A DNA stretch of 64,000 nucleotides, taken from the NCBI RefSeq assembly GCF_027214025.1, contig NZ_JAPWHB010000001.1, positions 186,001-250,000 on the forward strand, written 5' to 3'. The notes under the pieces are model-generated. The model worked only from the letters and a program-made list of their open reading frames with translations, was not told the origin of the DNA and searched no databases. Position numbers and translations under genes: made by a program. The stretch is from Parahoeflea alexandrii. Its GTDB lineage: Bacteria > Pseudomonadota > Alphaproteobacteria > Rhizobiales > Rhizobiaceae. Numbering within the stretch: position 1 is the stretch's first letter; each line of letters opens with the position of its first letter. Shown here piece by piece: positions 16,495-30,969 of the stretch.

Positions 16495-16510
16495 GGTTTC
16501 GGTGACACAC

Positions 16511-18253
16511 ATGACATTCAAACCAGCATCATGGCCGCGAAGGCTGCGCTCCCAGGAATGGTTCGGCGGAACCGGCCGTGACCAGATCTATCATCGCGGA
16601 TGGATGAAGAACCAGGGCTTCCCGCACGACATGTTCGACGGCCGGCCGGTCATCGGCATTCTCAACACCTGGTCGGAACTCACCCCGTGCAATGCGCATC
16701 TGCGCGATCTGGCGGAGCGGGTGAAGAACGGCGTGCTCGAGGCCGGCGGATTTCCTGTCGAGGTGCCGGTCTTCTCGGCGGCCGAAAGCTCGTTCCGTCC
16801 CACCGCGATGATGTATCGAAATCTCGCGGCGCTGGCGGTGGAGGAAACCGTCCGTGGCCAGCCGATGGACGGGGTGGTGCTGCTGGTGGGATGCGACAAG
16901 ACCACGCCGAGCCTTCTGATGGGAGCGGCTTCGACCGACCTTCCGTCGATCGTCGTCACCGGCGGGCCGATGCTCAACGGCTACTTCCGCGGCGAACGCG
17001 TGGGCTCAGGTACGCATCTGTGGAAATTCTCCGAAGCGGTCAAGGCAGGCGAGATGACGCAGGAGGACTTTCTCGAAGCCGAAGCCTCGATGTCGCGCTC
17101 GCCCGGGTCGTGCAACACCATGGGCACAGCGTCGACCATGGCGTCGATGGCCGAAGCGCTGGGCATGGCCTTGTCGGGCAACGCCGCAATCCCGGCCGTC
17201 GACAGCCGCCGGCGGGTGATGGCGCAGATGTCGGGCCGCCGTATAGTCGACATGGTCAAGGACGATCTCAAACCCTCCGACGTGATGACCAAGCAGGCGT
17301 TCGAGAACGCCATCCGCGCCAACGGCGCAATCGGCGGCTCGACCAACGCGGTCATTCACCTGCTGGCGATTGCCGGGCGGGTGGGCATCGACCTGACGCT
17401 TGACGACTGGGACCGCTGCGGTCGCGATGTGGCGACGATCGTCAACCTGATGCCCTCGGGCAAGTACCTGATGGAAGAGTTCTTCTACGCCGGCGGCCTG
17501 CCAGTGGTGCTCAAGCGGCTCGGCGAGGCGGGCCTTCTCAACAAGGATGCGATGACGGTCAGCGGGACGGCGATCTGGGACGAGGTCAAGAATGCGGTCA
17601 ACCACAACGAGGACGTAATCCTGCCGGTCGAAAAGGCGCTGACGGCCCAGGGCGGGATCGCGGTTCTCAAGGGCAACCTCGCGCCCCGCGGCGCGGTGAT
17701 CAAGCCTTCGGCCGCGTCGCCGCACCTGCTCAAGCACCGCGGCCGCGCCGTCGTGTTCGAGGATATCGACGACTACAAGGCGAAGATCAACGATGACGCG
17801 CTCGACATCGACGAGACCTGCGTGATGGTGTTGAAGAATTGCGGCCCGAAAGGCTATCCGGGCATGGCCGAAGTCGGCAACATGGGACTCCCGCCCAAGG
17901 TTCTGAAGAAGGGCATCACCGACATGATCCGCATTTCGGACGCGCGAATGTCTGGGACCGCCTACGGCACGGTGATCCTGCACACCTCGCCAGAAGCTGC
18001 CGATGGCGGGCCTCTGGCGGTGATCGAGAATGGCGACATGATCGAGCTTGATGTCGCTGCACGCAGCATCCGCGTCGACCTGTCCGACGAAGAGCTGGCG
18101 AAGCGCCTGAGCAACTGGAAGCCGCTCGCCGACAAGCCGGCCTCCGGCTATGCATGGCTGCACCAGAGCCACGTCCGGGGCGCCGATACGGGCGCGGATC
18201 TCGACTTCCTGATCGGATGCCGGGGTTCGCCGGTTGGAAAGGATTCCCACTGA
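16511..18253 (+). CDS. IlvD/Edd-family sugar-acid dehydratase (L-arabonate dehydratase-like)
   Basis: A 580-residue iron-sulfur dehydratase of the IlvD/Edd family. From the ATG at 16511 the three expected cluster cysteines are Cys60 (TPCNAH), Cys128 (GCDKT) and Cys201 (SPGSCNTMGTA). That is the same spacing, shifted by one, as the Cys59/127/200 I recall for the Rhizobium L-arabinonate dehydratase. The late RMSGTAYG contains the catalytic serine. With a sugar dehydrogenase and a DapA-family enzyme downstream, I infer dehydration of L-arabonate (or a close aldonate) to a 2-keto-3-deoxy acid. A GTG at 16502 is an alternative start. D-galactonate or D-xylonate remain possible substrates. Confidence 0.88.
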   Translation: MTFKPASWPRRLRSQEWFGGTGRDQIYHRGWMKNQGFPHDMFDGRPVIGILNTWSELTPCNAHLRDLAERVKNGVLEAGGFPVEVPVFSAAESSFRPTAMMYRNLAALAVEETVRGQPMDGVVLLVGCDKTTPSLLMGAASTDLPSIVVTGGPMLNGYFRGERVGSGTHLWKFSEAVKAGEMTQEDFLEAEASMSRSPGSCNTMGTASTMASMAEALGMALSGNAAIPAVDSRRRVMAQMSGRRIVDMVKDDLKPSDVMTKQAFENAIRANGAIGGSTNAVIHLLAIAGRVGIDLTLDDWDRCGRDVATIVNLMPSGKYLMEEFFYAGGLPVVLKRLGEAGLLNKDAMTVSGTAIWDEVKNAVNHNEDVILPVEKALTAQGGIAVLKGNLAPRGAVIKPSAASPHLLKHRGRAVVFEDIDDYKAKINDDALDIDETCVMVLKNCGPKGYPGMAEVGNMGLPPKVLKKGITDMIRISDARMSGTAYGTVILHTSPEAADGGPLAVIENGDMIELDVAARSIRVDLSDEELAKRLSNWKPLADKPASGYAWLHQSHVRGADTGADLDFLIGCRGSPVGKDSH

Positions 18254-19191
18254 TGCCACTCAAGATTGCCCTTGCCGGCATCGGCAAGATCGCCCGCGAC
18301 CAGCATATTCCGGCACTCAACGCTTCTCCGGACTGGGAACTGGCGGCCACCGTGTCGCGGCACGCAACCGTGGACGGCGTCGAGGCTTTTGAAGATTTCG
18401 AGACCATGCTTGATGCGCGGCCCGACATCACCGTCGTGTCGCTGTGCATGCCGCCGGTGCCGCGGTTCGATTATGCCCGAGCCGCCATCCTGGCTGGCCG
18501 TCACGTGATGCTCGAAAAACCTCCCGGCGCAACGGTTTCCGAATGCCATGCGCTGGAAGAACTCGCGCGCAGGGCCGGCGTTTCGCTCTATGCGACCTGG
18601 CATTCGCGCGAAGCGGCGATGGTCGCCCCCGCCAAGGCGTGGCTCGCCGGCAAGAAGATCAAGAGCCTCGTGGTGACCTGGAAGGAGGACGTGCGCAAGT
18701 GGCATCCCGGCCAGACCTGGATCTGGCAGGCGGGTGGCTTGGGGGTGTTCGATCCCGGCATCAATGCACTCTCGATCGTGACCGAAATCCTGTCCGAGCC
18801 GATCCACATCACGTCCTCGGAATTGCTGATCCCTGAGAATTGCGAAACCCCGATCGCGGCGAACCTCACATTTGCCCATCCGCAGGGCGCCGAGGTCAGC
18901 GCCGAGTTCGACTTCCGCAAGGAAGGCGACCAGTTCTGGAACATCGCCATCGAGACCGATCAGGGAAATCTTGTGCTCTCCGAAGGCGGGGCGACCCTGT
19001 CGATCAATGGCGAGATGCAAAGTACAGCCAGCGGAGACACCGCGCTCAAGGGCGAATACCCGAGGCTTTACGCCAACATGGCGGCGCTGGTGCGCGCCCG
19101 CGGCATCGATATGGATCTCGCCCCGATGGCGCATGTCGCTGACGCCTTTCTCCTGGGCAAGCGGGTCACCGTCGAGCCGTTTATCGAATAG
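18253..19191 (+). CDS. Gfo/Idh/MocA-family sugar 1-dehydrogenase (L-arabinose/D-galactose dehydrogenase-like)
   Basis: A 312-residue NAD(P)-dependent oxidoreductase. The N-terminal Rossmann fold starts KIALAGIGKIARDQHIPAL and has the family EKPPGATVSE motif; the C-terminal part is the Gfo/Idh substrate domain. The length and sequence pattern are like the bacterial D-galactose 1-dehydrogenase and Azospirillum L-arabinose 1-dehydrogenase. It would oxidise the imported sugar at C1 to the lactone. Its ATG overlaps the dehydratase stop, so the two are translationally coupled. Confidence 0.85.
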   Translation: MPLKIALAGIGKIARDQHIPALNASPDWELAATVSRHATVDGVEAFEDFETMLDARPDITVVSLCMPPVPRFDYARAAILAGRHVMLEKPPGATVSECHALEELARRAGVSLYATWHSREAAMVAPAKAWLAGKKIKSLVVTWKEDVRKWHPGQTWIWQAGGLGVFDPGINALSIVTEILSEPIHITSSELLIPENCETPIAANLTFAHPQGAEVSAEFDFRKEGDQFWNIAIETDQGNLVLSEGGATLSINGEMQSTASGDTALKGEYPRLYANMAALVRARGIDMDLAPMAHVADAFLLGKRVTVEPFIE

Positions 19192-19287
19192 GCTGCCGCA
19201 CTTCGGTGCAGACCGCCATGAACGGTGACAGGCGGGGCTGCAATCCCGGTCTCGAGCCGATGAAACCAATACCGAAAGGATCAAACG

Positions 19288-20205
19288 ATGAAGCAACCGC
19301 TCGAAAACATTCTTCCCGTGGCGCCGACGCCGTTTCACCCGGACGGCCGGGTGGATGAAGACGGCATGCGCCGGGTGATCGATTGCATGATCGACCAGGG
19401 GGTCGATGCGATCTGCATTCTGGCCAACTATTCCGAGCAGTTCCTGCTGTCCGATGAAGAGCGCACCCTGCTGATGCGGCTCAGCCTCGAACACGCGGAC
19501 GGGCGGGTCCCCGTCATCGTCACCACCAGCCATTTCTCCACACAGATCGCGACGCAACGGGCGCAGGCCGCCGAGGCCATGGGCGCGTCGATGATCATGA
19601 TGATGCCGCCCTATCACGGGTCAGGGCTTTTTCCGGCGCCGCAGGGAATTTTCGAACATTTCGAGGCGGTCAGTGGCGCGATCTCGATCCCGATCATGGT
19701 GCAGGATGCGCCGCTGTCCGGCGTCACCATGCCGGTCGATCTGCTGGCCCGCCTGGCGAAGGAGCTCGAGAATGTTTCCTACTTCAAGATCGAGTGCCCC
19801 TTTGCCGCCGACAAACTGGCAGCCCTAATCGAGGCCGCCGGCGACTATATCGACGGCCCGTTTGACGGCGAGGAAGCGGTGACACTCCTGGCCGATCTCG
19901 ATGCCGGCGCCACCGGCACGATGACATCGGCGATGTTTCCGGAACTGATCCGGCCGATCGTGACCAGCTACCGCGCCGGAGGCAAGGATGCGGCGCTCGC
20001 GCAATGGCAGAAGTGCCTGCCGCTGATCAATCACGAGAACCGGCAATGCGGATTGCGCGGGGCGAAGGTGGTGTTCAAGGAAGGCGGCGTGATTGCAAGC
20101 GACCATGTGCGCCATCCACTCAAGCCGATGTCCGAGCGGACACGGACGCGGCTGCTGGAACTCGCCCGCGACCTCGATGTCATGGCGTTGCGGTGGGGCA
20201 AATAA
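19288..20205 (+). CDS. DapA/DHDPS-family 2-keto-3-deoxy sugar acid dehydratase or aldolase
   Basis: A 305-residue class I (Schiff-base) TIM-barrel enzyme of the DapA/NanA family. The catalytic lysine is Lys167 (SYFKIE) and the paired tyrosine region is PPYHGSG. In a set with an aldonate dehydratase and an aldose dehydrogenase the likely role is L-2-keto-3-deoxyarabonate dehydratase, giving alpha-ketoglutaric semialdehyde; a 2-keto-3-deoxy-acid aldolase is the alternative. A GAAAGGA ribosome site precedes the ATG. It is the last gene of the sugar operon. Confidence 0.82.
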   Translation: MKQPLENILPVAPTPFHPDGRVDEDGMRRVIDCMIDQGVDAICILANYSEQFLLSDEERTLLMRLSLEHADGRVPVIVTTSHFSTQIATQRAQAAEAMGASMIMMMPPYHGSGLFPAPQGIFEHFEAVSGAISIPIMVQDAPLSGVTMPVDLLARLAKELENVSYFKIECPFAADKLAALIEAAGDYIDGPFDGEEAVTLLADLDAGATGTMTSAMFPELIRPIVTSYRAGGKDAALAQWQKCLPLINHENRQCGLRGAKVVFKEGGVIASDHVRHPLKPMSERTRTRLLELARDLDVMALRWGK

Positions 20206-20299
20206 TCCTGCGTCAGGAACGCGCCGGGGGCAGGGGCATCGGATGCCGCCTGCTCACCGCATTTCAAATCCGGACGGAGTTTGCTAGAGCGGGAGGGTT

Positions 20300-20917
20300 A
20301 TGAAACCCGTACTCTATTCCTTCCGCCGCTGTCCCTATGCCATGCGCGCCCGTCTCGCGGTGTTATCGTCCGGCGTCGAGGTGGAACTGCGCGAAATCCT
20401 TTTGCGGGACAAGCCCGAAGCGTTTCTGGCCGCCTCGCCGAGTGCAACGGTGCCGAGCCTCGTCACCGAGGCAGGCGTCGTCGACGAGAGCCTCGAGGTG
20501 ATGATCTGGGCGCTCGAGCAGAACGACCCGGAAGGCTGGCTTGAAATGCCGGACAAAGGTTTTGACTGGATCGCCCGCTCCGACGGCCCCTTCAAGCAGG
20601 CGCTGGACCGGACCAAGTATTCTACCCGATATCCGGGTGTCGATCCGGAAGCCGAACGGGACGCCGCTGCTGCGTTCCTGGGTGAACTCAATGCCCGGAT
20701 CGGCGAGTGGATCTTCGAAAGGCCGAGCCTTGCCGATTTTGCGATCCTGCCCTTCGTCCGGCAGTTTGCCTTTATCGACAAGTCCTGGTTCGACGCCCAG
20801 CCCTGGCCAGCTCTGCAGGGCTGGCTGGAGCGTTTCCTGGTTTCGGACCGCTTCGAGCGCATCATGCACAAATATCCGCAGTGGCGGGAATGCGACCCCC
20901 CGGTCAGCTTTCCCTGA
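20300..20917 (+). CDS. Glutathione S-transferase family protein
   Basis: A 205-residue protein with an N-terminal thioredoxin-like GST domain starting VLYSFRRCPYAMRARLAV and the cis-proline region TVPSLV (around residue 52), followed by an all-helical C-terminal domain. The CPYA motif places a cysteine at the active-site position, as in beta/omega-like or GrxB-like GSTs, suggesting thiol transfer or deglutathionylation rather than classical conjugation. GGGAGGG precedes the ATG. It is upstream of tetR but separated by that gene's own promoter and operator. Confidence 0.85.
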   Translation: MKPVLYSFRRCPYAMRARLAVLSSGVEVELREILLRDKPEAFLAASPSATVPSLVTEAGVVDESLEVMIWALEQNDPEGWLEMPDKGFDWIARSDGPFKQALDRTKYSTRYPGVDPEAERDAAAAFLGELNARIGEWIFERPSLADFAILPFVRQFAFIDKSWFDAQPWPALQGWLERFLVSDRFERIMHKYPQWRECDPPVSFP

Positions 20918-20950
20918 GCCCCTCGCACTGCGATCCAGCCACCGGAGAGC

Positions 20951-20985
20951 TTGCAATTTGAAATATGAATCAGTATTCATGTTTC
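20951..20985 (+). promoter_or_regulatory. tetR promoter with TetR operator A
   Basis: The palindrome ATATGAAT-CAGT-ATTCATGT (20963-20982, one mismatch) extends to GAAA...TTTC at 20960-20985. A -35 TTGCAA (20951-20956), a 17-base spacer and a -10 TATTCA (20974-20979) place the operator over the spacer and -10. A near-identical palindrome lies at the promoter of the opposing transporter operon (30238-30257). Function as a TetR operator is inferred from position and repetition. Confidence 0.65.
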
Positions 20986-21576
20986 ATGGCAACGAACCCG
21001 TACCCAAGAACCAAAAGAGGTGCTGAGCGGCGCGAGCAGATCCTGCGCGCGGCCGAGGCGATGATCGGCACGCAGGGCTTCTCTGCAGCCTCGATCGCCG
21101 ACATCACCCGTCACGCAAAGACGGCGCTCGGCACCTTCTACATCTACTTCTCCAGCAAGGAAGACGTCTTTCGCGAACTGGTTCTGGAAATGGGGCAGCT
21201 GACCCGCGCGATGGTCACCCAGGCGGTGGCGGATGCGCCTAACCGGCTCGAGGCGGAACGCGCAGGCCTGAAGGCGTTCCTGCGGTTTGTCGCCGAACGG
21301 CCTTCACTCTACCGGATCGTCGAGGAAGCCCGTTTCATCGATGTCGAGGCCTACAAGGCCTATTTCACCAATTTCGCCAAGGCCTACGCAGCGCAGCTGC
21401 GCGAAGCGGAAGCATCGGGCGAATTACGGCCCGGCGATGCCGAGGTGCGCGCGTGGGCGCTGATGGGGATCGCCAAGACACTCGGCGAGCGCTACGTGCT
21501 CTGGGACGAGACCGCCGACATCGACCATGTCGTTGACGAGGCCTATTCGATGATCCGGGACGGCATTGCACCATGA
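20986..21576 (+). CDS. TetR-family regulator of the adjacent catabolic operons
   Basis: A 196-residue TetR-type repressor: N-terminal helix-turn-helix (REQILRAAEAMIGTQGFSAASIADITRHAKTALGTFYIYFSSKEDVF) and a ligand-binding helical domain. An in-frame ATG at 20965 lies inside the operator palindrome and upstream of the predicted transcript start. The ATG at 20986 coincides with that start, so I read the mRNA as leaderless; no ribosome site precedes 20986. Its stop overlaps the crotonase ATG. The neighbouring CoA ligase suggests the inducer is an acyl-CoA or the free acid. Confidence 0.9.
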   Translation: MATNPYPRTKRGAERREQILRAAEAMIGTQGFSAASIADITRHAKTALGTFYIYFSSKEDVFRELVLEMGQLTRAMVTQAVADAPNRLEAERAGLKAFLRFVAERPSLYRIVEEARFIDVEAYKAYFTNFAKAYAAQLREAEASGELRPGDAEVRAWALMGIAKTLGERYVLWDETADIDHVVDEAYSMIRDGIAP

Positions 21577-22355
21577 CGACGAAGGTGGCTTTCGATTCAG
21601 TCGAGTTGCCGGGAGGCGCTGTCTGCGCGCAAATTGGCCTTGCGGGAGGACGCGCGAATTCGCTCGAGCCTGAATTGCTTGGCGACATCGTCTTGGCGCT
21701 CGACAGGGCAGAAATGGAAAATGCATCCGTTATCCTGCTGACCGGCGGCCGGAACTTTTCCAGCGGCGGCGATGTCCGCGGCTTTCATGCAGCTGCGCTC
21801 GACGGCAAGGGGCAGGACTATGCCCGCTCGGTTGTTCCGCTGCTGCAGACCATCGTCGCCCGCCTAATCTCGGTGCCGCGCCTTGTGGTGGTGGCCGCTC
21901 GGGGGGCTATCACCGGCGGCGCGGCGGGCCTGCTGTTTGCCGCCGACATCGCGGTGCTTGCACCCGATGCATTCGTGCAACCCTATTATCCCCAGGTCGG
22001 CTTCGCTCCGGACGGGGGGTGGACGGCACTGCTTCCCGAACGCATCGGCGCGGGCAAGGCCGCGGAATGGCTGCAATCCGACCGGCGGCTGAACGCCGAA
22101 GCGCTTTGCGAGACGGGCCTTGCCACCGCCATATCGGACAACCCTGAAGCCCACGCGCGAGACCTCGCGGCAAAAGGCGCGATCGGCGCCCGGCTTGCGA
22201 CGAAGGCATTGATCTGGGACAGCGCCCGCCGCGGCGCGGTGCAGACGCGTCTGGAGGCGGAAACCGCGGCCTTTATCGAGCGGATAGGCGCGCCGGAGAC
22301 ACTTGTCGGCATGTCGCGTTTTCTCGAACGTATTGGAGGCAAGGCCAATGTTTGA
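21573..22355 (+). CDS. Crotonase-family protein lacking hydratase glutamates (PaaG-like isomerase candidate)
   Basis: A 260-residue crotonase-fold acyl-CoA enzyme. The oxyanion region (NFSSGGDVRGF) and the TGGAAGLLFAADIAVL segment are clear. The two catalytic glutamates of enoyl-CoA hydratase are absent: the GGGCEL position reads GGAAGL and the QPE position reads QPY. An aspartate, Asp147 (GFAPDGG), sits where PaaG-type isomerases carry their catalytic Asp. I therefore favour a double-bond or ring isomerase, or another crotonase reaction, over hydration. It overlaps tetR by four bases and the ligase gene by eight. Confidence 0.85.
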   Translation: MTTKVAFDSVELPGGAVCAQIGLAGGRANSLEPELLGDIVLALDRAEMENASVILLTGGRNFSSGGDVRGFHAAALDGKGQDYARSVVPLLQTIVARLISVPRLVVVAARGAITGGAAGLLFAADIAVLAPDAFVQPYYPQVGFAPDGGWTALLPERIGAGKAAEWLQSDRRLNAEALCETGLATAISDNPEAHARDLAAKGAIGARLATKALIWDSARRGAVQTRLEAETAAFIERIGAPETLVGMSRFLERIGGKANV

Positions 22356-23832
22356 CACCATTCCCGACATGGCCGCGAAGCGGGCCGAGATATCTCCCGA
22401 CGCGATCGCCTTCACCGATGCCGGCAGCGGACGGCAGTGGCGGTTTTCGGAGATCAACGATGCTGCCAACGCGGTTGCCGCGGGACTTGTGCGAACCGGA
22501 ATCGGCCACGGCGACCGGCTCGCGATCCTCTGCCTAAACCGGGTCGAGTTCTTCATCGTGCTGTTTGCCTGCCAGAAGACCGGCGCCATTCTCTGCCCGC
22601 TCAACTGGCGGCAACCGGCCCCAGAACTCGTCGAAACGCTCGAACCGGTCTGCGCCAAGGCGCTCATTCACGACGCGGCGCAGGCTGAACTGGCAGCAGC
22701 GGTGGCGCGTTCGTGCGGCATTCCCACGATGGGGATCGAGACCGATCTCCAGGACTGGATCGAAATCGGAGGCGACCAGCCTTCCGTAACGGTCGACGCA
22801 AACCAGCCCTGGTACCTGCTGTTCACGTCGGGTACGACCGGGCGGCCGAAGGCGGTGATCCAGACCGCCCGGATGGCGTGGGCCAATGCCGTCAACATTT
22901 CCCAGGCGGCGCGGATGACCGGGGAAGACCGCTCGGTCAATTTCCTGCCGCTGTTTCACACCGCGGGCATCAATCTCTACACCCTGCCTCTGTTCCTGAT
23001 GGGGGGCTCATCCACTGTTCTGCCGAAATTCGAGCCGGACCAGATTCTCGCCCTGCTCAAGCAGGGCCGGGTGAATCAGTTCTTTGGGGTGCCGGCGATC
23101 TACCAGGCCTTCAGCCTGCTGCCAGATGTCGGCGAAGTCGACTGGAGTTCGGTCCGCTGCGGCTGCGGCGGCGCGCCCTTGCAGGAACCGTTGATCCGGC
23201 TTTTCGCGGGGTTCGGCGCCAAGGTGCTCAACGGCATGGGCATGACCGAAACCGGACCGACGGTGTTCCTGATGGATCAGGAGAACGCTGAGAAGAAGAT
23301 CGGCTCGGTCGGCCGGGCACAGATGCTCACCGAGATGCGGCTTGACGGCGTTGCCGCCGGAGCGCCGGGTGCCGGCGAGATCCAGCTCAAGGGTCCCAAC
23401 ATCACGCCGGGATACTACGGAAACGAAAAGGCCACGCGCGAAGCCTTTACCGAGGATGGCTGGCTCAGGACCGGCGATGTCGGTCGGCGCGATGAGGATG
23501 GCTACATCTTCATCGTCGACCGGATCAAGGACATGTATATTTCCGGCGGCGAGAACGTTTATCCGGCCGAAGTCGAGCGCGTGCTCAACGAGCACGCCGA
23601 TGTGCTCGAATCCGCGGTGATCAGCTTGCCGGACGCCAAATGGGGAGAGGTCGGCGCGGCCTTCATCATTGCAAGGCCTGGCGCCAGCCTCGATCCCCAG
23701 GAACTCCGAAGCTGGAGCCGGCAGAGACTGGCGGCGTACAAGGTTCCCGTCCAGGTCACGCTGGTGGAAGACTTCCCCCGCACCGCCGCCGGCAAGGTGC
23801 GCAAGCCCGAATTGAGATCGCTGTTATCATGA
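22348..23832 (+). CDS. Acyl-CoA synthetase (AMP-forming ligase)
   Basis: A 494-residue ANL-superfamily ligase that activates a carboxylic acid to its CoA thioester through an acyl-adenylate. Visible motifs are the P-loop LLFTSGTTGRPKAV, GMGMTETGPT, the hinge RTGDVGRRDEDGYIFIVDR, GGENVYPAEVE and the C-terminal catalytic lysine in AAGKVRKPE. The start at 22348 follows GGAGGCAAGG and overlaps the end of the crotonase gene. It is the committing step of the pathway; the substrate cannot be read from sequence. Confidence 0.92.
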   Translation: MFDTIPDMAAKRAEISPDAIAFTDAGSGRQWRFSEINDAANAVAAGLVRTGIGHGDRLAILCLNRVEFFIVLFACQKTGAILCPLNWRQPAPELVETLEPVCAKALIHDAAQAELAAAVARSCGIPTMGIETDLQDWIEIGGDQPSVTVDANQPWYLLFTSGTTGRPKAVIQTARMAWANAVNISQAARMTGEDRSVNFLPLFHTAGINLYTLPLFLMGGSSTVLPKFEPDQILALLKQGRVNQFFGVPAIYQAFSLLPDVGEVDWSSVRCGCGGAPLQEPLIRLFAGFGAKVLNGMGMTETGPTVFLMDQENAEKKIGSVGRAQMLTEMRLDGVAAGAPGAGEIQLKGPNITPGYYGNEKATREAFTEDGWLRTGDVGRRDEDGYIFIVDRIKDMYISGGENVYPAEVERVLNEHADVLESAVISLPDAKWGEVGAAFIIARPGASLDPQELRSWSRQRLAAYKVPVQVTLVEDFPRTAAGKVRKPELRSLLS

Positions 23833-24185
23833 AGATCGACCTTTCCGCCACATGGACCCCGTCGCAGAGTGAGTTCGACCTGTTCGCGCGCATTTCCGGC
23901 GACGACAACCCGATCCACGTCGATCCGGAGTTTTCGGCCCGGACCGCCTTCGGCCGCACGGTCAGCCACGGCATGTTGATCTACACCAAGCTCTGGGGAC
24001 TGCTGATTGCGGCGCAGCCCGGGATCATACAAACCGGCCAGACAATGATGTTTCCCAATCCCTGCTATACCGGCGAGCCGGTCGAGCTGAGTGTCTCCGG
24101 AGATTGTCCCGGAACGCTCTCGGTTTGCGCGGTCAGGGCAGCCGATGGGGCAGAACTTCTTGTCGGCGAAACGGAGGTGGCCTGA
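23829..24185 (+). CDS. MaoC-family (R)-specific hydratase, catalytic-type subunit
   Basis: A 118-residue hotdog-fold protein with the R-hydratase signature FARISGDDNPIHVDPEFA-like (Asp25 and His30 as the catalytic pair), followed by GRTVSHGML. It would add water across an enoyl-CoA double bond. It is shorter than single-domain PhaJ (about 135 residues). It overlaps the ligase stop by four bases and shares one base with the next gene, a second MaoC-like protein of exactly the same length. Confidence 0.88.
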   Translation: MKIDLSATWTPSQSEFDLFARISGDDNPIHVDPEFSARTAFGRTVSHGMLIYTKLWGLLIAAQPGIIQTGQTMMFPNPCYTGEPVELSVSGDCPGTLSVCAVRAADGAELLVGETEVA

Positions 24186-24541
24186 TGCAGGTCGGTCAGT
24201 CAGCAAGCACCAGCCGCAGCTACAGCCGCGCGGATCTGGAAGACTTCGCCACTCTGAGCGGCACGGCTGTTCCCGAGAGCATTCCCGAGCCGCTGATCGC
24301 AGCGCTTTTCTCCTATCTGCTGGGGGTCGAGCTCCCGGGCCCGGGCACCAATTATCTCAAGCAGGAACTCAGGTTTCTCGCGCCGGCTTCACCGGAAACG
24401 GAGCTGACGGCGAAGGTCGAGATCACCCGGCTGCGGCCGGAAAAACATCTGGTCGATCTCTGGGCAACCTGTACGGACGCCAACGGTGTGCTGGTCTGCG
24501 AGGGCCGGTCGCTGGTCAAGGCAAAGGACGTGGCCGCCTAG
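24185..24541 (+). CDS. MaoC-like protein without the hydratase dyad
   Basis: A 118-residue protein whose layout follows the MaoC hotdog fold (YSRADLEDFATLSGT, then a hydrophobic helix, then beta strands EITRLRPEKHLVDLWATC). The D-x-N-P-x-H motif is missing: the equivalent reads SGTAVPES. This suggests a non-catalytic partner forming a heteromer with the preceding gene product, as for the ChsH1/ChsH2 pair of mycobacterial steroid degradation. Its ATG overlaps the stop of its partner by one base. Confidence 0.75.
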   Translation: MQVGQSASTSRSYSRADLEDFATLSGTAVPESIPEPLIAALFSYLLGVELPGPGTNYLKQELRFLAPASPETELTAKVEITRLRPEKHLVDLWATCTDANGVLVCEGRSLVKAKDVAA

Positions 24542-24608
24542 TCGCCTTTTTTATTTCTATTTCAGACTGTTGGACGGTTTTCCTGTGCCCGTGCGGACGG
24601 GCTTTCAC

Positions 24609-25379
24609 CTAGAGATTGCGGGCGAATTCCGTGAGCCTTGCGGCGAAGGCCGCGGGTTCTTCCAGATGCGGCGAATGACCAGAGTCCGCAAATGAGTGCA
24701 TCTCGCCGCGCGGTGCAGTCTCGGCCAGCCATCTGGCCGTCGATGCCGGGTAGACCCGACTCAACGCGCCGCAAGTGGCAAGCAGCGGGCAGGGCAGGTC
24801 GCTGATCACCTGTCGCTTGTCCATCAGGGCCAGTGCCTTCCACATGGTGATCATCCGGGCGGGATCGTTCGACAGGATCTGTTCACGCGCATCGGCCCGG
24901 CTGTAGCCCGGTGCTCCTTCGCGGTGACCAAACATCGTGGTTGCTATCGCCTCGGCCATTCCCGGCCAGTCGGCGATCATGCGGCCGGTGGTGGTCTCGA
25001 CATCTTCAGCGCTCTGGCCGATCAGCCCGTGCGGCCAGTCCGGTCCGCAGGCAAGCTTCGGGCTCATATCGACGCTCATCAGGCCGGCGATCCGGTCGGT
25101 CCCGAAGGTTTCAACATACTGCCAGGCCACCGCGGCCCCCATCGACCAGCCGACCAGAAGAACATCGGTGAGGTCGCGCTCTTCGAGCAACGCGGACAGC
25201 GTTTGCGCCGCTGCCGCAAGCGACGGCTCGTCCGCCGCTCGTTCGCCGTGGCCGGGCAGGTCCGGCGCATGGCAATCGAGCTCCACAGGCAATCTGGCAA
25301 TCAGATCGTTGAAGATCGCGCCACGCATGGTCCAGCCGTGCAACAGCACCACGGGCCGTGGCCGGAGTGTTTCCGCCAC
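24609..25379 (-). CDS. Alpha/beta hydrolase
   Basis: A 256-residue alpha/beta-hydrolase: oxyanion region VVLLHGWTMRG, nucleophile elbow GWSMG with Ser79, and catalytic His in SGHSPH near the C terminus. I use the GTG at 25379, which has GGAGG ten bases upstream and overlaps the permease gene's end; a longer frame reaching 25463 would run deep into that gene. As the last gene of the ABC-importer operon it may hydrolyse an imported ester or lactone, or cleave a ring-opened product. The substrate is unknown. Confidence 0.85.
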   Translation of the reverse strand: MAETLRPRPVVLLHGWTMRGAIFNDLIARLPVELDCHAPDLPGHGERAADEPSLAAAAQTLSALLEERDLTDVLLVGWSMGAAVAWQYVETFGTDRIAGLMSVDMSPKLACGPDWPHGLIGQSAEDVETTTGRMIADWPGMAEAIATTMFGHREGAPGYSRADAREQILSNDPARMITMWKALALMDKRQVISDLPCPLLATCGALSRVYPASTARWLAETAPRGEMHSFADSGHSPHLEEPAAFAARLTEFARNL

Positions 25380-25384
25380 CAGCC

Positions 25385-26437
25385 TCAATCCTCCGACCTC
25401 AGCCGCCCGACGATGCCGGTGGGAAAGAAGTAGACGCTGAGGATGAAGAGGACGCCGAGCCACAGCAGCCAGCGGTCTGGATCGAGCAATTGCGGTACCA
25501 GCGGCAGGCCTTCGGTGGCGCCCGACGCCACGCCCATCAGGTTCTGCAGGTAGTTCTGCGCCAGCACGAAGATCGTCGCACCGATCACCGCGCCATACAT
25601 GGTTCCCATGCCGCCGATCACCACCATCAGCAGGATATCGAGCATGATCTCGAAGGACAGCGTGGTGTCGGGCCCGACATAGCGCAGCCAGATTGCAAAC
25701 AGGCTGCCGGCGAGGGCCGCCATGGCCGCGGACAGGCAGGTCGCCAGGGTCCGATAGAACACCACCCGATAGCCGATAGCCTCGGCTCGAAAATCGTTCT
25801 CGCGAATGGCCTGCAGCACCCGGCCGAACGGCGAGTTCACGACCCTCAGAAGCACCAGGAACAACGCCAGCGACGCGAAGAACACCAGGTAATAATTGAG
25901 AATCTTGCCGGTGATGCTGACGCCGAACAGGCTGCCGAGCTTGAACGCAGGGGTGAGTTCGCGCGGGATGGAGTAGTTCAGTCCGTCCTCGCCTCCGGTC
26001 AGCCCGGAGAGCTGGCTGACCAGCACCGCCACGGCGGAGGCCACCGCAAGCGTGATCATGGCAAAGAAGATCGCCCGGACCCTGAGCGAGAATAGCCCTA
26101 TCAGCAGTGCGAGCAGCGCCGAAGCAATAGCACCCAGCACGGCGCCGACGACCAGCGCATCGTAGCCGCGTCCCATATGGGTCGAGGCCAGCGCCACGCC
26201 GTAGGCGCCAAGGCCGAAGAACATCGTATGCGCAAAGCTGACGATGCCGGAATAGCCGAGCAGCAGATCGTAGCTTGCCACCAGCACGATGAAGATGCAG
26301 ATCCGCGCCGCTGTCTCCAGCGAGCGCACGCCGGGGAACAGGAACGGCGCCAGCGCCAGGCCAAGCAGGATGGCGAGCAGCAGGCCGGTGAGGATAAGTG
26401 AGCGCGGGCGGTCGCCGGATATGAGGTTTGTGAGCAT
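25385..26437 (-). CDS. Branched-chain-type ABC transporter permease (LivM-like)
   Basis: A 350-residue inner-membrane permease of the LivM class, with about eight to nine hydrophobic segments and the conserved VASYDLLLGYSGIVSFAH and SPFGRVLQAIRENDFRAEAIGY signatures, the latter contacting the ATPases. One base separates it from the LivH-like gene. This transporter class also imports aromatic and other carboxylates, which fits the CoA ligase of the convergent operon. Confidence 0.9.
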   Translation of the reverse strand: MLTNLISGDRPRSLILTGLLLAILLGLALAPFLFPGVRSLETAARICIFIVLVASYDLLLGYSGIVSFAHTMFFGLGAYGVALASTHMGRGYDALVVGAVLGAIASALLALLIGLFSLRVRAIFFAMITLAVASAVAVLVSQLSGLTGGEDGLNYSIPRELTPAFKLGSLFGVSITGKILNYYLVFFASLALFLVLLRVVNSPFGRVLQAIRENDFRAEAIGYRVVFYRTLATCLSAAMAALAGSLFAIWLRYVGPDTTLSFEIMLDILLMVVIGGMGTMYGAVIGATIFVLAQNYLQNLMGVASGATEGLPLVPQLLDPDRWLLWLGVLFILSVYFFPTGIVGRLRSED

Positions 26438-26438
26438 C

Positions 26439-27473
26439 TTACTTCGCCTTCACAACGGGCATCATGCCCTGCGGCCGCCACATCAGGATGGCCGTCATCA
26501 GGGCGATGTTGGAAATCAGCGCCAACTTGGGTTCGAGAAAGGCGACATAGTTCTGCAAGAGGCCGACCAGCAGCGCACCGATGAAGGCGCCCTCGACCGA
26601 TCCCAGCCCGCCGATGATGACGACGATGAAGACCAGGATCATCATCTCCTCGCCCATGCCGGCGGTGATGACCTCCTGGTAGAGTCCCCACATCACGCCA
26701 CCCAGGCCGGCAAGCGCCGAACCGGCGATAAAGACGCCGATAAAGACCAACCGCAGCCTGTAACCCAGCGCCTCGACCATTTCACCGTTCTGCACGCCGG
26801 CGCGGACGATCAGCCCAATCTTGGTGCGCTTGAGCACCAGCCGCATGGCAACGAACAGCGCCAGGCCGAAGACGACGGCAAGCAGGCGGTACTTCTCGAT
26901 CGCAGCTCCCGCAAAGGTCACCGCGCCCTTGAGCGTTTCCGGACGGGTGAGATAGATCTCGTCAGGGCCCCAAAGCACATGGATCATCTGCTCGATGACA
27001 ATGAGGCCGCCGACGGTGACCAGGATCTGCTTGAGATGCGCACCATAGACCGGCCGCACGATCACCCGCTCGAAACCCCAGCCCAGCGCGCCTGTGACGC
27101 ACATGGCGGCAATCACTGCGGCAAGCACGGCGGCCACGTTGAGCAGCAGCGACGGCACACCGGTCCAGCTCTCCAGCCCCAGCAGCACGGAGATGCCGAC
27201 ATAGGCGCCCACCGAGATGAAGGCGCCATGGCCGAAATTGATCACGTCCATCAGCCCGAACACCAGCGTCAGGCCGGAGGCCATGATAAAGATCATCATC
27301 CCCATCGCCAGGCCGGAAACCGTCAGCGTCAGCCAGCTCGATGGCGAGCCGATCGAAAGGAAACCGAGAACCACAAGGATCGGCACGAGCAGCAGCGGCA
27401 TCGCCTTGCCGATCCTGTCGGGCAGCGACAGTTGCGCGTATTTCGGGGCGTGGTCGGGTGCGGCGTTGGTCAT
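26439..27473 (-). CDS. Branched-chain-type ABC transporter permease (LivH-like)
   Basis: A 344-residue permease of the LivH class: the MASGLTLVFGLMDVINFGHGAF motif and the cytoplasmic coupling segment RAGVQNGEMVEALGY are visible, with the late GGLGSVEGAFIGALLVGL. An N-terminal extension of about 40 residues precedes the usual start. It pairs with the LivM-like protein. Its ATG overlaps the stop of the LivF-like gene by one base. Confidence 0.9.
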   Translation of the reverse strand: MTNAAPDHAPKYAQLSLPDRIGKAMPLLLVPILVVLGFLSIGSPSSWLTLTVSGLAMGMMIFIMASGLTLVFGLMDVINFGHGAFISVGAYVGISVLLGLESWTGVPSLLLNVAAVLAAVIAAMCVTGALGWGFERVIVRPVYGAHLKQILVTVGGLIVIEQMIHVLWGPDEIYLTRPETLKGAVTFAGAAIEKYRLLAVVFGLALFVAMRLVLKRTKIGLIVRAGVQNGEMVEALGYRLRLVFIGVFIAGSALAGLGGVMWGLYQEVITAGMGEEMMILVFIVVIIGGLGSVEGAFIGALLVGLLQNYVAFLEPKLALISNIALMTAILMWRPQGMMPVVKAK

Positions 27474-28195
27474 CAGTGCGCCTCCATGGTCAGGCCCATC
27501 AGCCGTTCCTGCAATGCGGCATCGCCGGCGAGTTCGGCCATCCGGCCTGCCCAGATGATCCGTCCGTCATCCATCACCGCGGCGGTGTCGCCAAGCGCCT
27601 TGGCGACGGCGAAATTCTGTTCGACCAGCAGGATCGATGCGCCCTTGTTCTTGAGGTCACGAAGCGCACCGGCCATGGTCGAGATGATCGCCGGGGCCAG
27701 CCCCTTCGTCGGTTCGTCGATCAGGTAGAGCTGACGCTCCTCGGCCATGGCACGGGCGATGGAGAGCATCTGCTTCTGTCCGCCCGACAGGTTGCCTGCT
27801 TCCGAGCGCCAGAATGTGCGCAAGGGCGGAAACGCCGCAAAGATCCAGTCGAGCCGGGCCTGATCGAGCGGACCGGAGGCTGCGGCCAGGATCATGTTCT
27901 CCTCGACCGTCAGGTCGGAGAAAATGCCCATGTCCTCGGGCACGAAACCGATGCCGGCGCGGGCGCGGGCAGGGGTGGGCAGGGTGGTGATATCGGCGCC
28001 ATCGAAGCGAAGGCTGCCGGATTTCGCCTGCCAGTGGCCGATGATGGTGCGCAGCGTCGTGGTCTTGCCGACGCCGTTGCGGCCGAGCAGCATGGTCACG
28101 CCGCCGCGCGGCACCACGAGATCGACGCCCTGCAGGATGTGATACTGGGCGATGTCCGTGTGGACACCTGTGAGTTCGAGGATCGGATCAGACAT
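27473..28195 (-). CDS. ABC transporter ATP-binding protein (LivF-like)
   Basis: A 240-residue ABC ATPase with Walker A LLGRNGVGKTTT, signature LSGGQKQMLSIARAM, and Walker B QLYLIDEPTKGLAP. The GRNGVGKTT form and the short length are typical of LivF. The start at 28195 (MSDPILEL) overlaps the LivG-like gene by eight bases. With LivG it drives the importer. Confidence 0.92.
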   Translation of the reverse strand: MSDPILELTGVHTDIAQYHILQGVDLVVPRGGVTMLLGRNGVGKTTTLRTIIGHWQAKSGSLRFDGADITTLPTPARARAGIGFVPEDMGIFSDLTVEENMILAAASGPLDQARLDWIFAAFPPLRTFWRSEAGNLSGGQKQMLSIARAMAEERQLYLIDEPTKGLAPAIISTMAGALRDLKNKGASILLVEQNFAVAKALGDTAAVMDDGRIIWAGRMAELAGDAALQERLMGLTMEAH

Positions 28196-28952
28196 CGGCA
28201 AGGTCCCGTCCCATATAGGCTTCCTGCACAACGTCCGACGCCATCACCGTTGCCGGGTCGCCGTCCGCGGCAAGCGCGCCGTTGTGCAGCACGATGATCC
28301 GGTCGGCGAGCGAGCGGATCACATCCATCTTGTGTTCGACCAACAGGATGGTGCGGTCCTTCTCGGCCTTGAGTTCGGCGATCAGATCGAGCACCACCGG
28401 CGCCTCGTCGACGCTCATGCCGGCAGTCGGTTCGTCGAACATGTAGACCACCGGGTCGAGCGCGATCAGGATGGCGACCTCGAGCTTGCGCTGGTTGCCG
28501 TGGCTGAGCCCGCCGACCTTCTGCTCGCTGAGCGGATGCAGCCGGACCCGTTCCAGGATCGCCATCGCCGCGACCGTCAGTTCGGTGTGCGAACTCGCCA
28601 TGCTGAAGAGGTTGAAGCCCATCCTGCGCCTCGCCTGAATCACCAGCCGGACATTTTCGAGAACTGTGAGATTGGGAAACAGATTGGTGAGCTGGAAGGC
28701 GCGTCCAAGTCCCTTGCGGCAGCGGCTCGCCACCGGGTCGCGCGTCACGTCCTCGCCCATCAGCCTGACTGTACCTTCGGAGGCCGTGATCTGTCCCGAA
28801 ATCAGGTTGAAATAGGTTGTCTTGCCGGCGCCGTTGGGTCCGACGATCGCGGTCAGTTCACCGGCCCTGAAGCCGCAGCTGACCGCATCGACCGCCACAT
28901 GGCCGCCAAAGCGGACGGTCAGCCCATCCGTTTCCAGAAGCATCTGTGTCAT
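28188..28952 (-). CDS. ABC transporter ATP-binding protein (LivG-like)
   Basis: A 254-residue ABC ATPase: Walker A VGPNGAGKTTYFN, signature region LSHGNQRKLEVAIL (LSHG rather than LSGG, normal for LivG), and Walker B VVYMFDEPTAGMS. The C-terminal extension after the H-loop (VEHKMDVI) is the LivG type. It follows the binding-protein gene after a hairpin. Confidence 0.92.
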   Translation of the reverse strand: MTQMLLETDGLTVRFGGHVAVDAVSCGFRAGELTAIVGPNGAGKTTYFNLISGQITASEGTVRLMGEDVTRDPVASRCRKGLGRAFQLTNLFPNLTVLENVRLVIQARRRMGFNLFSMASSHTELTVAAMAILERVRLHPLSEQKVGGLSHGNQRKLEVAILIALDPVVYMFDEPTAGMSVDEAPVVLDLIAELKAEKDRTILLVEHKMDVIRSLADRIIVLHNGALAADGDPATVMASDVVQEAYMGRDLADV

Positions 28953-28982
28953 GGCGCACCCATGGAAGGAAAGAAAGAGGGT

Positions 28983-29010
28983 CGCGGACGTCCGGTATCG
29001 GACGCCCGCG
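28983..29010 (-). terminator. Intercistronic hairpin between binding-protein and ATPase genes
   Basis: A 12-bp inverted repeat (28983-28994 with 28999-29010, one G-T wobble) and a 4-base loop, followed on the minus strand by the pyrimidine run CTCTTTCTTTCC. It is placed 11 bases after the binding-protein stop, so it probably attenuates transcription into livG and stabilises the upstream message. Confidence 0.6.
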
Positions 29011-29020
29011 CCGAACAGGC

Positions 29021-30196
29021 TTAGTTGCGGATTGGGATATCCATCTCGTCGATGCCGATCTCACGGACGAGAACCGGGACGCCGTAGTCCTTGCCGTCCT
29101 GCACCTCGGTGCGGAAGTGGTACATCGCCTGCAGCGCCTGGTGGTCTTCCTTGCGGAAGCGCATGGTGCCCTTGGGTGTTTCCCACTCCATGCCTTCCAT
29201 GGCCGAGATCAGCGCTTCGGTGTCGGTGGAACCGGCCTTCTTGATGGCCTCGACCACGGCGATGCCGGCTGCCATGCCGCCTGCGGTGAAGAAATCCGGG
29301 GGCGAGCTGAAGCGATCCATGTGCTCCTTGACCAGCCAGTCGTTGACCGGGTTCTTCGGGATTTCATAGTAGTAGTAGGTGGCGCCTTCCATGCCGGGCA
29401 GTTCCTTGTAGGCCTTCAGCGCCGCTAGGATGTTGCCGCCGGTAGCAATCTCGACGCCGAAGCGCGAGGGATCCATGGCGTTGATCTTGCCCATCGGATT
29501 GCCGCCGCCGGCCCAGATGATGAACAGCTTCTTCTTGCCTTCGATGCCCTTCATGGCGTTGAAGATGCGTTCGGCCGCCGCGGTGAAATCGGTGGTGTCG
29601 GTCGGCACGTATTCCTCATGCGCGATCTTGGCGCCCGAGGCGTTGAGCGCCTCGCGGAAAGCGGCCACGCCATCGCGTCCGAAGGCGTAGTCCTGTGCCA
29701 GCGTGGCGATCGTCACGCCTTCGCCGCCAAGGGCAACAGCGTTCGAGATAGCGTCCTGCGAGGAATTGCGGCCGGTGCGGAAGATGAAGCGGTTCCAGTT
29801 TTCGCCGGTGATCGAGTCGGCCACCGCAGGCTCGACGATGAGGATCTTTTCGTATTCCTGTGCGACCGGAAGCATTGCCAGCGCAACGCCGGAACTGACC
29901 GGGCCGACCGCGATGTCGGCCTCGTCGTCGCCATAGGCTTCGGCCAGCAGAGCCTTGCCGATGTCGGGCTTGAGTTGCGTGTCCTTCTCGATGACGACGA
30001 GCTTTTCACCATTGACTTCCATGGTGCCGCCGGTGGCGTATTCGAGGCCAAGCATCAGGCCGTTGTGCGACTGGGCCGCATAGGCCTCAAGCGCGCCGGT
30101 CTTGCCATAGACATGGGCAATCTTGATGTCGGCGAGGGCCGGCGCAGTCAGCATCGCCGCTGCCACACCGGTTGCCAGTATCGTTTTCATCTTCAT
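29021..30196 (-). CDS. Periplasmic substrate-binding protein of the branched-chain-type ABC transporter (LivK-like)
   Basis: A 391-residue binding protein of the Peripla_BP_6 family. The signal peptide MKMKTILATGVAAAMLTAPALA is cleaved near residue 22, and the mature protein starts DIKIAHVYGKTGALEAYA. The start at 30196 follows GGGAGGAGACC. It is the first gene of the importer operon and delivers the unknown substrate to the LivHM-like channel. Its promoter region carries the second copy of the TetR palindrome. Confidence 0.92.
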   Translation of the reverse strand: MKMKTILATGVAAAMLTAPALADIKIAHVYGKTGALEAYAAQSHNGLMLGLEYATGGTMEVNGEKLVVIEKDTQLKPDIGKALLAEAYGDDEADIAVGPVSSGVALAMLPVAQEYEKILIVEPAVADSITGENWNRFIFRTGRNSSQDAISNAVALGGEGVTIATLAQDYAFGRDGVAAFREALNASGAKIAHEEYVPTDTTDFTAAAERIFNAMKGIEGKKKLFIIWAGGGNPMGKINAMDPSRFGVEIATGGNILAALKAYKELPGMEGATYYYYEIPKNPVNDWLVKEHMDRFSSPPDFFTAGGMAAGIAVVEAIKKAGSTDTEALISAMEGMEWETPKGTMRFRKEDHQALQAMYHFRTEVQDGKDYGVPVLVREIGIDEMDIPIRN

Positions 30197-30237
30197 TTCG
30201 GGTCTCCTCCCTGAGCGAATGACGGTGAAAACATGAA

Positions 30238-30260
30238 ACATGAATCAATATTCATGTCAA
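30238..30260 (-). promoter_or_regulatory. Importer operon promoter -35 with TetR operator B
   Basis: A perfect 8-4-8 palindrome, ACATGAATCAATATTCATGT (30238-30257), overlaps a consensus -35 TTGACA read on the minus strand (30260 to 30255). The -10 that should follow 17 bases on is poor (TTCATG). The half site GAAACATGAAT is the same as that at the tetR promoter. I infer shared repression by the TetR protein encoded at 20986. Confidence 0.65.
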
Positions 30261-30969
30261 GGACGGGACAAGGGGATACAGGCGGAAATCCGATGGCTCG
30301 AGCCTTACAGCAGTCATGGATCAACCGGTCCGCCTGGGAGAGGGCCTAAGGCTAAGGAAACCAGCTTCCCAGATGGATATTGACGGGAACGCTCCGGCAG
30401 CACTCGATGAAACCGCCGACATTGAGGTTGAGGCGGGAAGGGAAGGCAGTAACAACTTCCACGCAAGCCGGCCCGCTCGACGTTTCCTGGAAGTCTGCCG
30501 CACAATGTTCACTCCGTGATTGGAAAAACGCTTTGCAGTACAGCGCTTCAGATTTGGACGAGGGCAGCGGAGGCATTCCGAACCTGCAGGGTTTAAATGG
30601 CCAAGGTCGGCCCAGTTCATGCAAGACCCCGACGACTGCAGCTTTGCCGGAAGCTGGTTGAGGCGGATGAAGAGGCGTGCTGGATCTTGTGGCCGAAACT
30701 TCACCTGTTAGACCCTTGTCCCAATATCTGTGTTGGAAGAGCCTCTAGGTTCTCACCCCGATAACGAGCCCGTTGTCGAGACAACACCAATGCACGTGGG
30801 CAGTTGAGCGAGCCAAATGCAAGAAAGCCGCCTGTACCGGGCAATCGTCCACCTGCGCCAAAAGCCATCGTCCCGATGGACCAGAGGCCGGTCATGCAAT
30901 AAAAACCCAAACCAGGCCACCAATTTGAGGCTGATCACTTTGATGGCAACACTGCAAGGAAGAGCAACA
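30261..30969. other. Gene-poor region with one copy of a diverged repeat
   Basis: About 700 bases with no supported gene. Frames on both strands are short, arginine/serine-rich and lack ribosome sites or recognisable motifs. It includes one member of a degenerate repeat pair at 30566-30633. The stretch may be decayed mobile or gene DNA, but I cannot identify any source. Confidence 0.6.
30566..30633 (+). repeat. Degenerate intergenic repeat, copy 1
   Basis: About 68 bases, starting AGCGGAGGCATTCCGAACCT, that align over their whole length with 31709-31777. By eye roughly three quarters of positions match, and most differences are transitions. The central inverted repeat seen in copy 2 is decayed here. 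Confidence 0.6.

Follow-up and report, generated by a model that had tools for sequence, protein, structure and literature searches.

Does one TetR-family repressor govern two operons that face each other in the genome of Parahoeflea alexandrii, and for which acid or ester would those operons provide uptake and activation? The locus lies in a window of 64,000 nucleotides (positions 186,001 to 250,000 of contig NZ_JAPWHB010000001.1), where a set of 11 genes forms two operons that meet head-on at 24541/24609, each with a near-identical palindrome at its start (Table 1). The plus-strand operon reads tetR, crotonase, coenzyme A (CoA) ligase, maoC1 and maoC2, with overlapping gene ends, and the minus-strand operon reads binding protein, livG, livF, livH, livM and alpha/beta hydrolase. 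An earlier note on this DNA had listed a CoA ligase, a crotonase, two MaoC-like proteins of equal length, an alpha/beta hydrolase and a branched-chain-type importer, all of which we recovered as described. The note had also proposed one TetR regulon spanning both operons, which conservation of the predicted operator sites strongly supports; the whole explanation, in which this regulon serves to bring in (R)-3-hydroxybutyrate or its esters and to activate them with CoA, we judge evenly poised between right and wrong.

Predicted operator sites and their conservation

Palindromes had been reported at tetR and at the -35 region of the importer operon, and both were found there with an exact core, ATGAAT-N4-ATTCAT: GAAAT-ATGAATCAGTATTCAT-GTTTC at tetR (core 20965-20980) and GAAAC-ATGAATCAATATTCAT-GTCAA at the importer operon (core 30240-30255). 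These were the only matches in the window at two mismatches or fewer, each with none, and by count alone two such matches are not unusual (shuffle mean 1.38; at least two in 36 of 100 shuffles). A scan of the whole 5.54 Mb genome, as the earlier note had suggested, did not find many copies: the exact core occurs three times, at the two module sites and one other, and at one mismatch or fewer there are seven places per strand (two being overlapping registers of one place) versus none for a reversed control. At the third exact core, AGTGAATGAATATTCATTCATC at C50:121742, the flanking genes are, by eye, another tetR and one resembling cellulose synthase, and the GAAA/TTTC arms are absent. A palindrome at C50:121738-121757 (L176 6739-6759), GTGAATGAATATTCATTCA, belongs to a different TetR-like gene that precedes an efflux membrane fusion protein gene (by eye), and resembles the site of Bacillus FadR.

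Orthologous loci were gathered by protein search (40 loci; 43 of 297 genomes of the order and 25 of 385 of the class), with surroundings fetched for most. The site survey covered 105 stretches, 96 with the binding protein, four with tetR only (L020, L021, L034 and L045) and five with neither (L048-L052); sites were accepted at two mismatches or fewer to the core, and expectations came from dinucleotide shuffles. Many loci are from the same genus and hence not independent, and L043 and L149, apparently one contig, are counted twice among the divergent loci. The binding-protein frame of L040 holds a stop, so this locus was left out of the importer tree and kept in the site survey. The importer site of L022 is one of two weak candidates.

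The site tracked the presence of tetR. Among the 68 of 96 binding-protein loci that also carry tetR, 47 had a site at the importer, compared with 0.75 expected, and among the 28 loci without visible tetR there were three (0.35 expected). In two of these three, L166 and L167, tetR is apparently missing since the stretch or contig ends before it could appear; L085 is a genuine exception, with the site present and no tetR seen in 20 kb.

The site also tracked operon layout. A comparison of gene neighbourhoods, likewise suggested by the earlier note, found the gene set kept together in other genomes in convergent, co-directional and divergent arrangements. Convergent loci had the site at the importer in 30 of 30 cases and at tetR in 28 of 29, and co-directional single operons led by the importer had it before the importer in all 12 cases and before the internal tetR in none of the 12. 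Where tetR leads the operon (L136) the site was at tetR alone, and where tetR stands apart from the importer (L168, labelled reduced as its end is cut) the site was at tetR and not at the importer. Divergent loci, which have one common intergenic region, had weaker sites, in five of 24, all at two mismatches and none better. Speaking against a shared regulon are the 21 of 68 tetR loci without an importer site at this threshold, made up of 19 of the 24 divergent loci, L136 and L168. Of 48 importer sites, 34 have TTGAC before the core, which gives an abutting TTGACA -35-like box, a pattern found at none of 39 tetR sites. All these placements are as expected if both promoters are simply repressed. 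Because site conservation follows operon layout and tetR presence, it strongly supports, as a prediction from sequence, the earlier claim that a single TetR regulon takes in both convergent operons.

TetR-family autorepressors of local acyl-CoA regulons, of which we take FadR of Bacillus, PsrA and AcuR to be the closest, share with the window regulator a TetR_N domain (PF00440, 50 bits against a cut-off of 24), a short palindrome over the regulator's own promoter and target operons of CoA chemistry. The regulator is unlike known TetR models in that its 21 NCBIfam TetR matches lie far below cut-off (ScbR 60/150 bits, FadR 40/200, AcuR 33/247), and no equivalog cut-off was reached in the NCBIfam profile scan.

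Enzymes of the module

Alignments A1-A5 comprised the window protein plus 25/29, 22/35, 24/36, 23/30 and 22/29 orthologues, with near-copies and some frames with stops dropped. The crotonase had been described as lacking hydratase residues, and both glutamates are indeed missing when it is aligned by eye with what we take to be the enoyl-CoA hydratase motif; their positions hold an invariant glycine and a mostly aromatic residue. Every one of the 26 rows (the window protein and 25 of 29 complete orthologues) has D147, within an invariant PDGGW, which matches the PD of 3HRX in an alignment with 3HRX, 6SL9 and 6SLB. Taking the 3HRX aspartate to have a PaaG-type isomerase role, we suggest that the protein is probably an enoyl-CoA isomerase, although it scores below the PaaG cut-off of NCBIfam (TIGR02280; 67.6 bits versus 345.15).

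The two MaoC-like proteins appear to be an unequal pair. In MaoC1, SGDDN, I and H are invariant in 23 of 23 rows while P varies, so the catalytic Asp and His of the GDxNPxH region are present, and its nearest solved structure is 1IQ6 (PhaJ). MaoC2 has no Pfam match; its best profile match is also PhaJ (1IQ6), with the PhaJ loop around FNPLHLDPAF falling in an alignment gap, and an AlphaFold2 model (pLDDT 90) has 1IQ6 as its best fold match (TM 0.83). GDxNPxH is absent from MaoC2 in 25 of 25 rows, with a remnant, DRDPLYQE, retained in L048. MaoC2 is therefore like PhaJ in fold and unlike it in having lost the catalytic loop, and is probably a catalytically dead partner of MaoC1. PhaJ is a homodimer; MaoC1 and MaoC2 would instead form a catalytic/non-catalytic heterodimer, a pairing that recalls mycobacterial HadAB and HadBC.

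The nearest solved structures to the CoA ligase are 8WEV, a feruloyl-CoA synthetase, and 8WEU, a fatty-acyl-CoA synthase. Hydrolase residues S107, D132, S235 and H263 are invariant in 24 of 24 rows. Ligase and hydrolase are frequent importer partners across loci, which fits the acid or ester substrate proposed earlier, and in seven loci (L098, L099, L151, L152 and L158-L160) tetR, ligase and hydrolase stand beside the importer without crotonase or maoC genes. The earlier description of a complete breakdown set was not supported: the module has no acyl-CoA dehydrogenase, hydroxyacyl-CoA dehydrogenase or thiolase.

A second alpha/beta hydrolase family (HGLARTGRDFD) was seen 3' of livM at L145 14367-15209 and in 15 other loci, mostly where the tetR-linked hydrolase is missing (three of 16 loci with tetR); its nearest solved structures are 3BWX and 4OSE.

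The importer and its neighbours

The importer has the makeup of the LIV (HAAT) type, with a Peripla_BP_6 binding protein, two LIV-type permeases and two ATPases, and its proteins were below cut-off for all urea and branched-chain amino acid models of NCBIfam. RPA4397 (PDB 3N0X, 3NND) and the binding protein share 67% identity and one fold over 355 residues; the literature searched yielded nothing relevant on the ligand of RPA4397. The importer is scattered yet widespread in Alphaproteobacteria, at the genome frequencies given above, and binding protein and maoC2 both match on four named plasmids. This wide scatter and the plasmid matches suggest that the substrate is likely a useful environmental acid.

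The neighbours recurring in at least three genera were a second alpha/beta hydrolase, a second LIV importer, two Hoeflea/g149/g400 genes, a metallo-hydrolase, a glutathione S-transferase (GST) and a further ABC (ATP-binding cassette) protein; the remaining recurrent clusters look like shadow frames of core genes. This count set aside core genes and homologues of the 3-hydroxybutyrate dehydrogenase gene (bdhA), thiolase, acetoacetate-CoA ligase, sigma54 and PAS-LuxR, which were counted separately. A sigma54-type activator stood beside the importer in 12 of 28 tetR-less loci (seven genera), with a PAS domain in the L096 member.

Three further loci are of note. In a Hoeflea relative (L169 / G046:C2) the whole module lies on a plasmid-sized contig of 154,071 bp; a second LIV importer is divergent from it, and past these come genes that by eye resemble transposases. 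On an actinobacterial contig of 8.9 kb (L048 1514-8849, Acidimicrobiia), maoC1, maoC2 and the crotonase, ligase and liv genes occur together, with no tetR detected, which may mean that the module is of greater age or has been transferred widely. In two related genera a pyridoxal-phosphate-dependent decarboxylase adjoins the importer (L131 10830-12377 and L132 11554-12960); it is distantly like diaminobutyrate decarboxylase (148-151 of 900 bits), and no TetR operon is seen in the 20 kb covered there.

Substrate

The earlier note knew no named pathway for this set, and the literature searched describes neither the module nor an ABC importer for 3-hydroxybutyrate, but genes around some orthologous importers indicate 3-hydroxybutyrate metabolism. 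In five tetR-less loci bdhA stands beside an orthologous importer (binding protein 60-74% identical), and these loci fall in two separate importer-tree clades; the two bdhA members scanned, L091 and L102, are over the curated cut-off. In the Devosiaceae-like loci L102 and L105 a second LIV importer and 3-oxoacid CoA-transferase genes follow (subunit A in both and subunit B in L105 over cut-off), with a thiolase start at the stretch end of L105, and L092 has acetoacetate-CoA ligase and thiolase over cut-off. The window module resembles the L102 and L105 operons in its orthologous importer and in its alpha/beta hydrolase, which lies 3' of livM both in TetR modules and in 3-hydroxybutyrate-type loci. 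It differs from them in lacking bdhA, CoA-transferase, thiolase and sigma54 activator. The second importer of the bdhA operons turns up next to the TetR modules of L104, L153 and L169 as well, with binding proteins 64-65% identical. The bdhA operons and the shared second importer favour (R)-3-hydroxybutyrate or its esters as substrate.

Several observations weigh against this substrate. Adjacency to bdhA is limited to five of 96 importer loci in one family (three genera), as a raw count, and falls to 0 of 68 among tetR loci; queries with bdhA, thiolase and acetoacetate-CoA ligase matched in no tetR locus. The window module has none of the bdhA, acetoacetate activation and thiolase genes expected of a 3-hydroxybutyrate catabolic operon. 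By eye, no bdhA follows the second importer beside TetR modules (L189-L191). The window genome already has the standard route, with two bdhA-like genes over cut-off outside the module and an acetoacetate-CoA ligase, and 3-hydroxybutyrate leaves the role of the crotonase unexplained. The nearest solved structure to the ligase is a feruloyl-CoA synthetase, and in three genera the module or importer has a homogentisate-type cluster close by, some of its genes named by eye. Ruegeria pomeroyi is reported to import 3-hydroxybutyrate through hbtABC instead (PMC10130141), a system of the TRAP type. Finally, crotonyl-CoA carboxylase/reductase was not matched in the window genome at E 1e-100, and an ethylmalonyl-CoA outlet for crotonyl-CoA was for this reason rejected as a general explanation; the enzyme is present in 23 of 41 tested genomes (most of the importer-bearing ones from the order survey plus same-family tetR matches) and in 120 of 385 of the class.

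In a rather unlikely alternative, the same regulon handles some other short acid with a branch or a double bond, such as a beta,gamma-unsaturated or lactone-derived one; the crotonase would shift the double bond and MaoC1/MaoC2 would hydrate it. The isomerase-type Asp kept in every crotonase row suits such a substrate, as does a gene set that requires no redox step; no neighbour indicates such an acid, however, and the seven loci without crotonase or maoC imply that double-bond chemistry is not essential to the importer.

Also unlikely, in our view, is that the same regulon serves an aromatic or phenylpropanoid acid or ester, which the hydrolase would free, the ligase activate, and hydratase and crotonase shorten or remodel in its side chain before a homogentisate-type ring pathway. 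Besides the feruloyl-CoA synthetase likeness of the ligase, eight of 104 loci (again a raw count), from Leisingera (L018), g128 and g249, have a metallo-hydrolase gene close to the module or importer, and L018 and L131 also carry homologues of flavin adenine dinucleotide (FAD) hydroxylase, GST and fumarylacetoacetase (the last two by eye). These aromatic neighbours are not conserved, being confined to three genera, and the gene set lacks an oxygenase, an aldehyde dehydrogenase and a thiolase. LIV-type binding proteins of Rhodopseudomonas palustris bind aromatic acids (PMC3223731), but those structures are just 21-28% identical to the window binding protein. It is very improbable that the importer palindrome arose by chance or serves something unrelated, with tetR in control of its own operon alone. 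In favour of this reading are the 21 of 68 tetR loci without an importer site, mostly divergent ones with one common control region; the excess of importer sites over the shuffle expectation and their conserved position beside TTGACA oppose it.

Proposed mechanism

The sites, their conservation, the gene set, the motifs and the neighbours come from computation, whereas repressor binding, the effector, the substrate, the pairing of the subunits, the order of reactions and an isomerase role for the crotonase are inferred. For (R)-3-hydroxybutyrate or its esters, one TetR repressor would bind both near-identical palindromes: operator 1, covering tetR's own promoter, would control tetR-crotonase-ligase-maoC1-maoC2, and operator 2, by its -35-like box, the facing importer-hydrolase operon. 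Both operons would remain silent until the repressor is freed by an effector, for which the acid or its CoA ester is the probable candidate. The cargo of the importer would be a short 3-hydroxy acid, with (R)-3-hydroxybutyrate and/or its ester-linked dimers or oligomers the likeliest; the hydrolase would cut the ester, the ligase would form the CoA thioester, and the PhaJ-like MaoC1/MaoC2 heterodimer would dehydrate this to a 2-enoyl-CoA for ordinary beta-oxidation. A more specific version, which we offer tentatively and hold to be doubtful, is an ABC route for dimers and oligomers from polyhydroxybutyrate decay, in which LIV-type uptake, cytoplasmic hydrolase, ligase and a PhaJ-like heterodimer with a dead subunit lead to crotonyl-CoA under one TetR repressor, by-passing 3-hydroxybutyrate dehydrogenase.

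Features of the locus

Table 1. Predicted features of the two-operon locus, in window coordinates
Feature	Position	Strand	Basis
Operator 1 (predicted)	20960..20985		GAAAT-ATGAAT-CAGT-ATTCAT-GTTTC, immediately 5' of tetR
tetR, TetR-family regulator, 196 aa from ATG 20986	20986..21576	+	PF00440 E 2e-13
Crotonase-superfamily protein, PaaG-type Asp147, without hydratase glutamates, probable enoyl-CoA isomerase	21573..22355	+	PF00378; alignments
AMP-forming acyl-CoA ligase, 494 aa	22348..23832	+	PF00501 and PF13193
MaoC1, catalytic (R)-hydratase-type subunit, SGDDNPIH, 118 aa	23829..24185	+	PF01575; alignment; nearest solved 1IQ6
MaoC2, hot-dog subunit without catalytic loop, 118 aa, probable dead MaoC1 partner	24185..24541	+	Profile and predicted fold
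Alpha/beta hydrolase, GWSMG nucleophile	24609..25463	-	PF12697/PF00561
livM-type permease	25385..26437	-	PF02653
livH-type permease	26439..27473	-	UrtB/LivH-like models, below cut-off
livF-type ATPase, likely start ATG 28195	27473..28231	-	Sequence, position and tblastn orthologues only
livG-type ATPase	28188..28952	-	PF00005; UrtD/LivG-like, below cut-off
Periplasmic binding protein, LIV (HAAT) type	29021..30196	-	PF13458 (Peripla_BP_6)
Operator 2 (predicted)	30235..30260		TTGACA (minus strand, 30260-30255) abuts as importer-operon -35-like box

At the protein level the window genome is near Hoeflea alexandrii (identity 99% for tetR, 96% for binding protein and 80% for crotonase). The open tetR frame starts at 20965, within operator 1; the ATG at 20986 is the more likely start by comparison of frames, because in L016 the frame from the palindrome ATG hits a stop after eight codons. 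The hydrolase may have an internal real start, for example GTG at 25379. A promoter and terminator scan of 20900-30400 gave one promoter-like site (shuffle mean 1.5) and five terminator-like sites (mean 6.4), neither above chance, one of the latter lying at the end of maoC2 (24530-24545).

Upstream and in the same direction, 16502-20917 encodes, by eye, an IlvD/Edd-type dehydratase, a Gfo/Idh oxidoreductase and a DapA-type aldolase, then a GST (PF13417); their gene content suggests a sugar-acid operon that is likely separate from the TetR module. Hoeflea, g149 and g400 have, close to the module, a gene that by eye resembles a D-alanyl-D-alanine carboxypeptidase (window about 34400, L088 12860, L140 17979).

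Significance

The hbtABC transporter of R. pomeroyi, which we take to be of the TRAP type, is unlike the window importer, which is of the ABC type. Uptake of 3-hydroxybutyrate by hbtABC was shown experimentally in this related marine group, and that work describes it as the one such system confirmed in bacteria and counts 3-hydroxybutyrate with the bloom substrates of high availability (PMC10130141). A second, ABC-type route for 3-hydroxybutyrate, if true, would alter how that carbon flux is read from genomes, and the predicted regulon can be put to a pointed and inexpensive test in many named strains.

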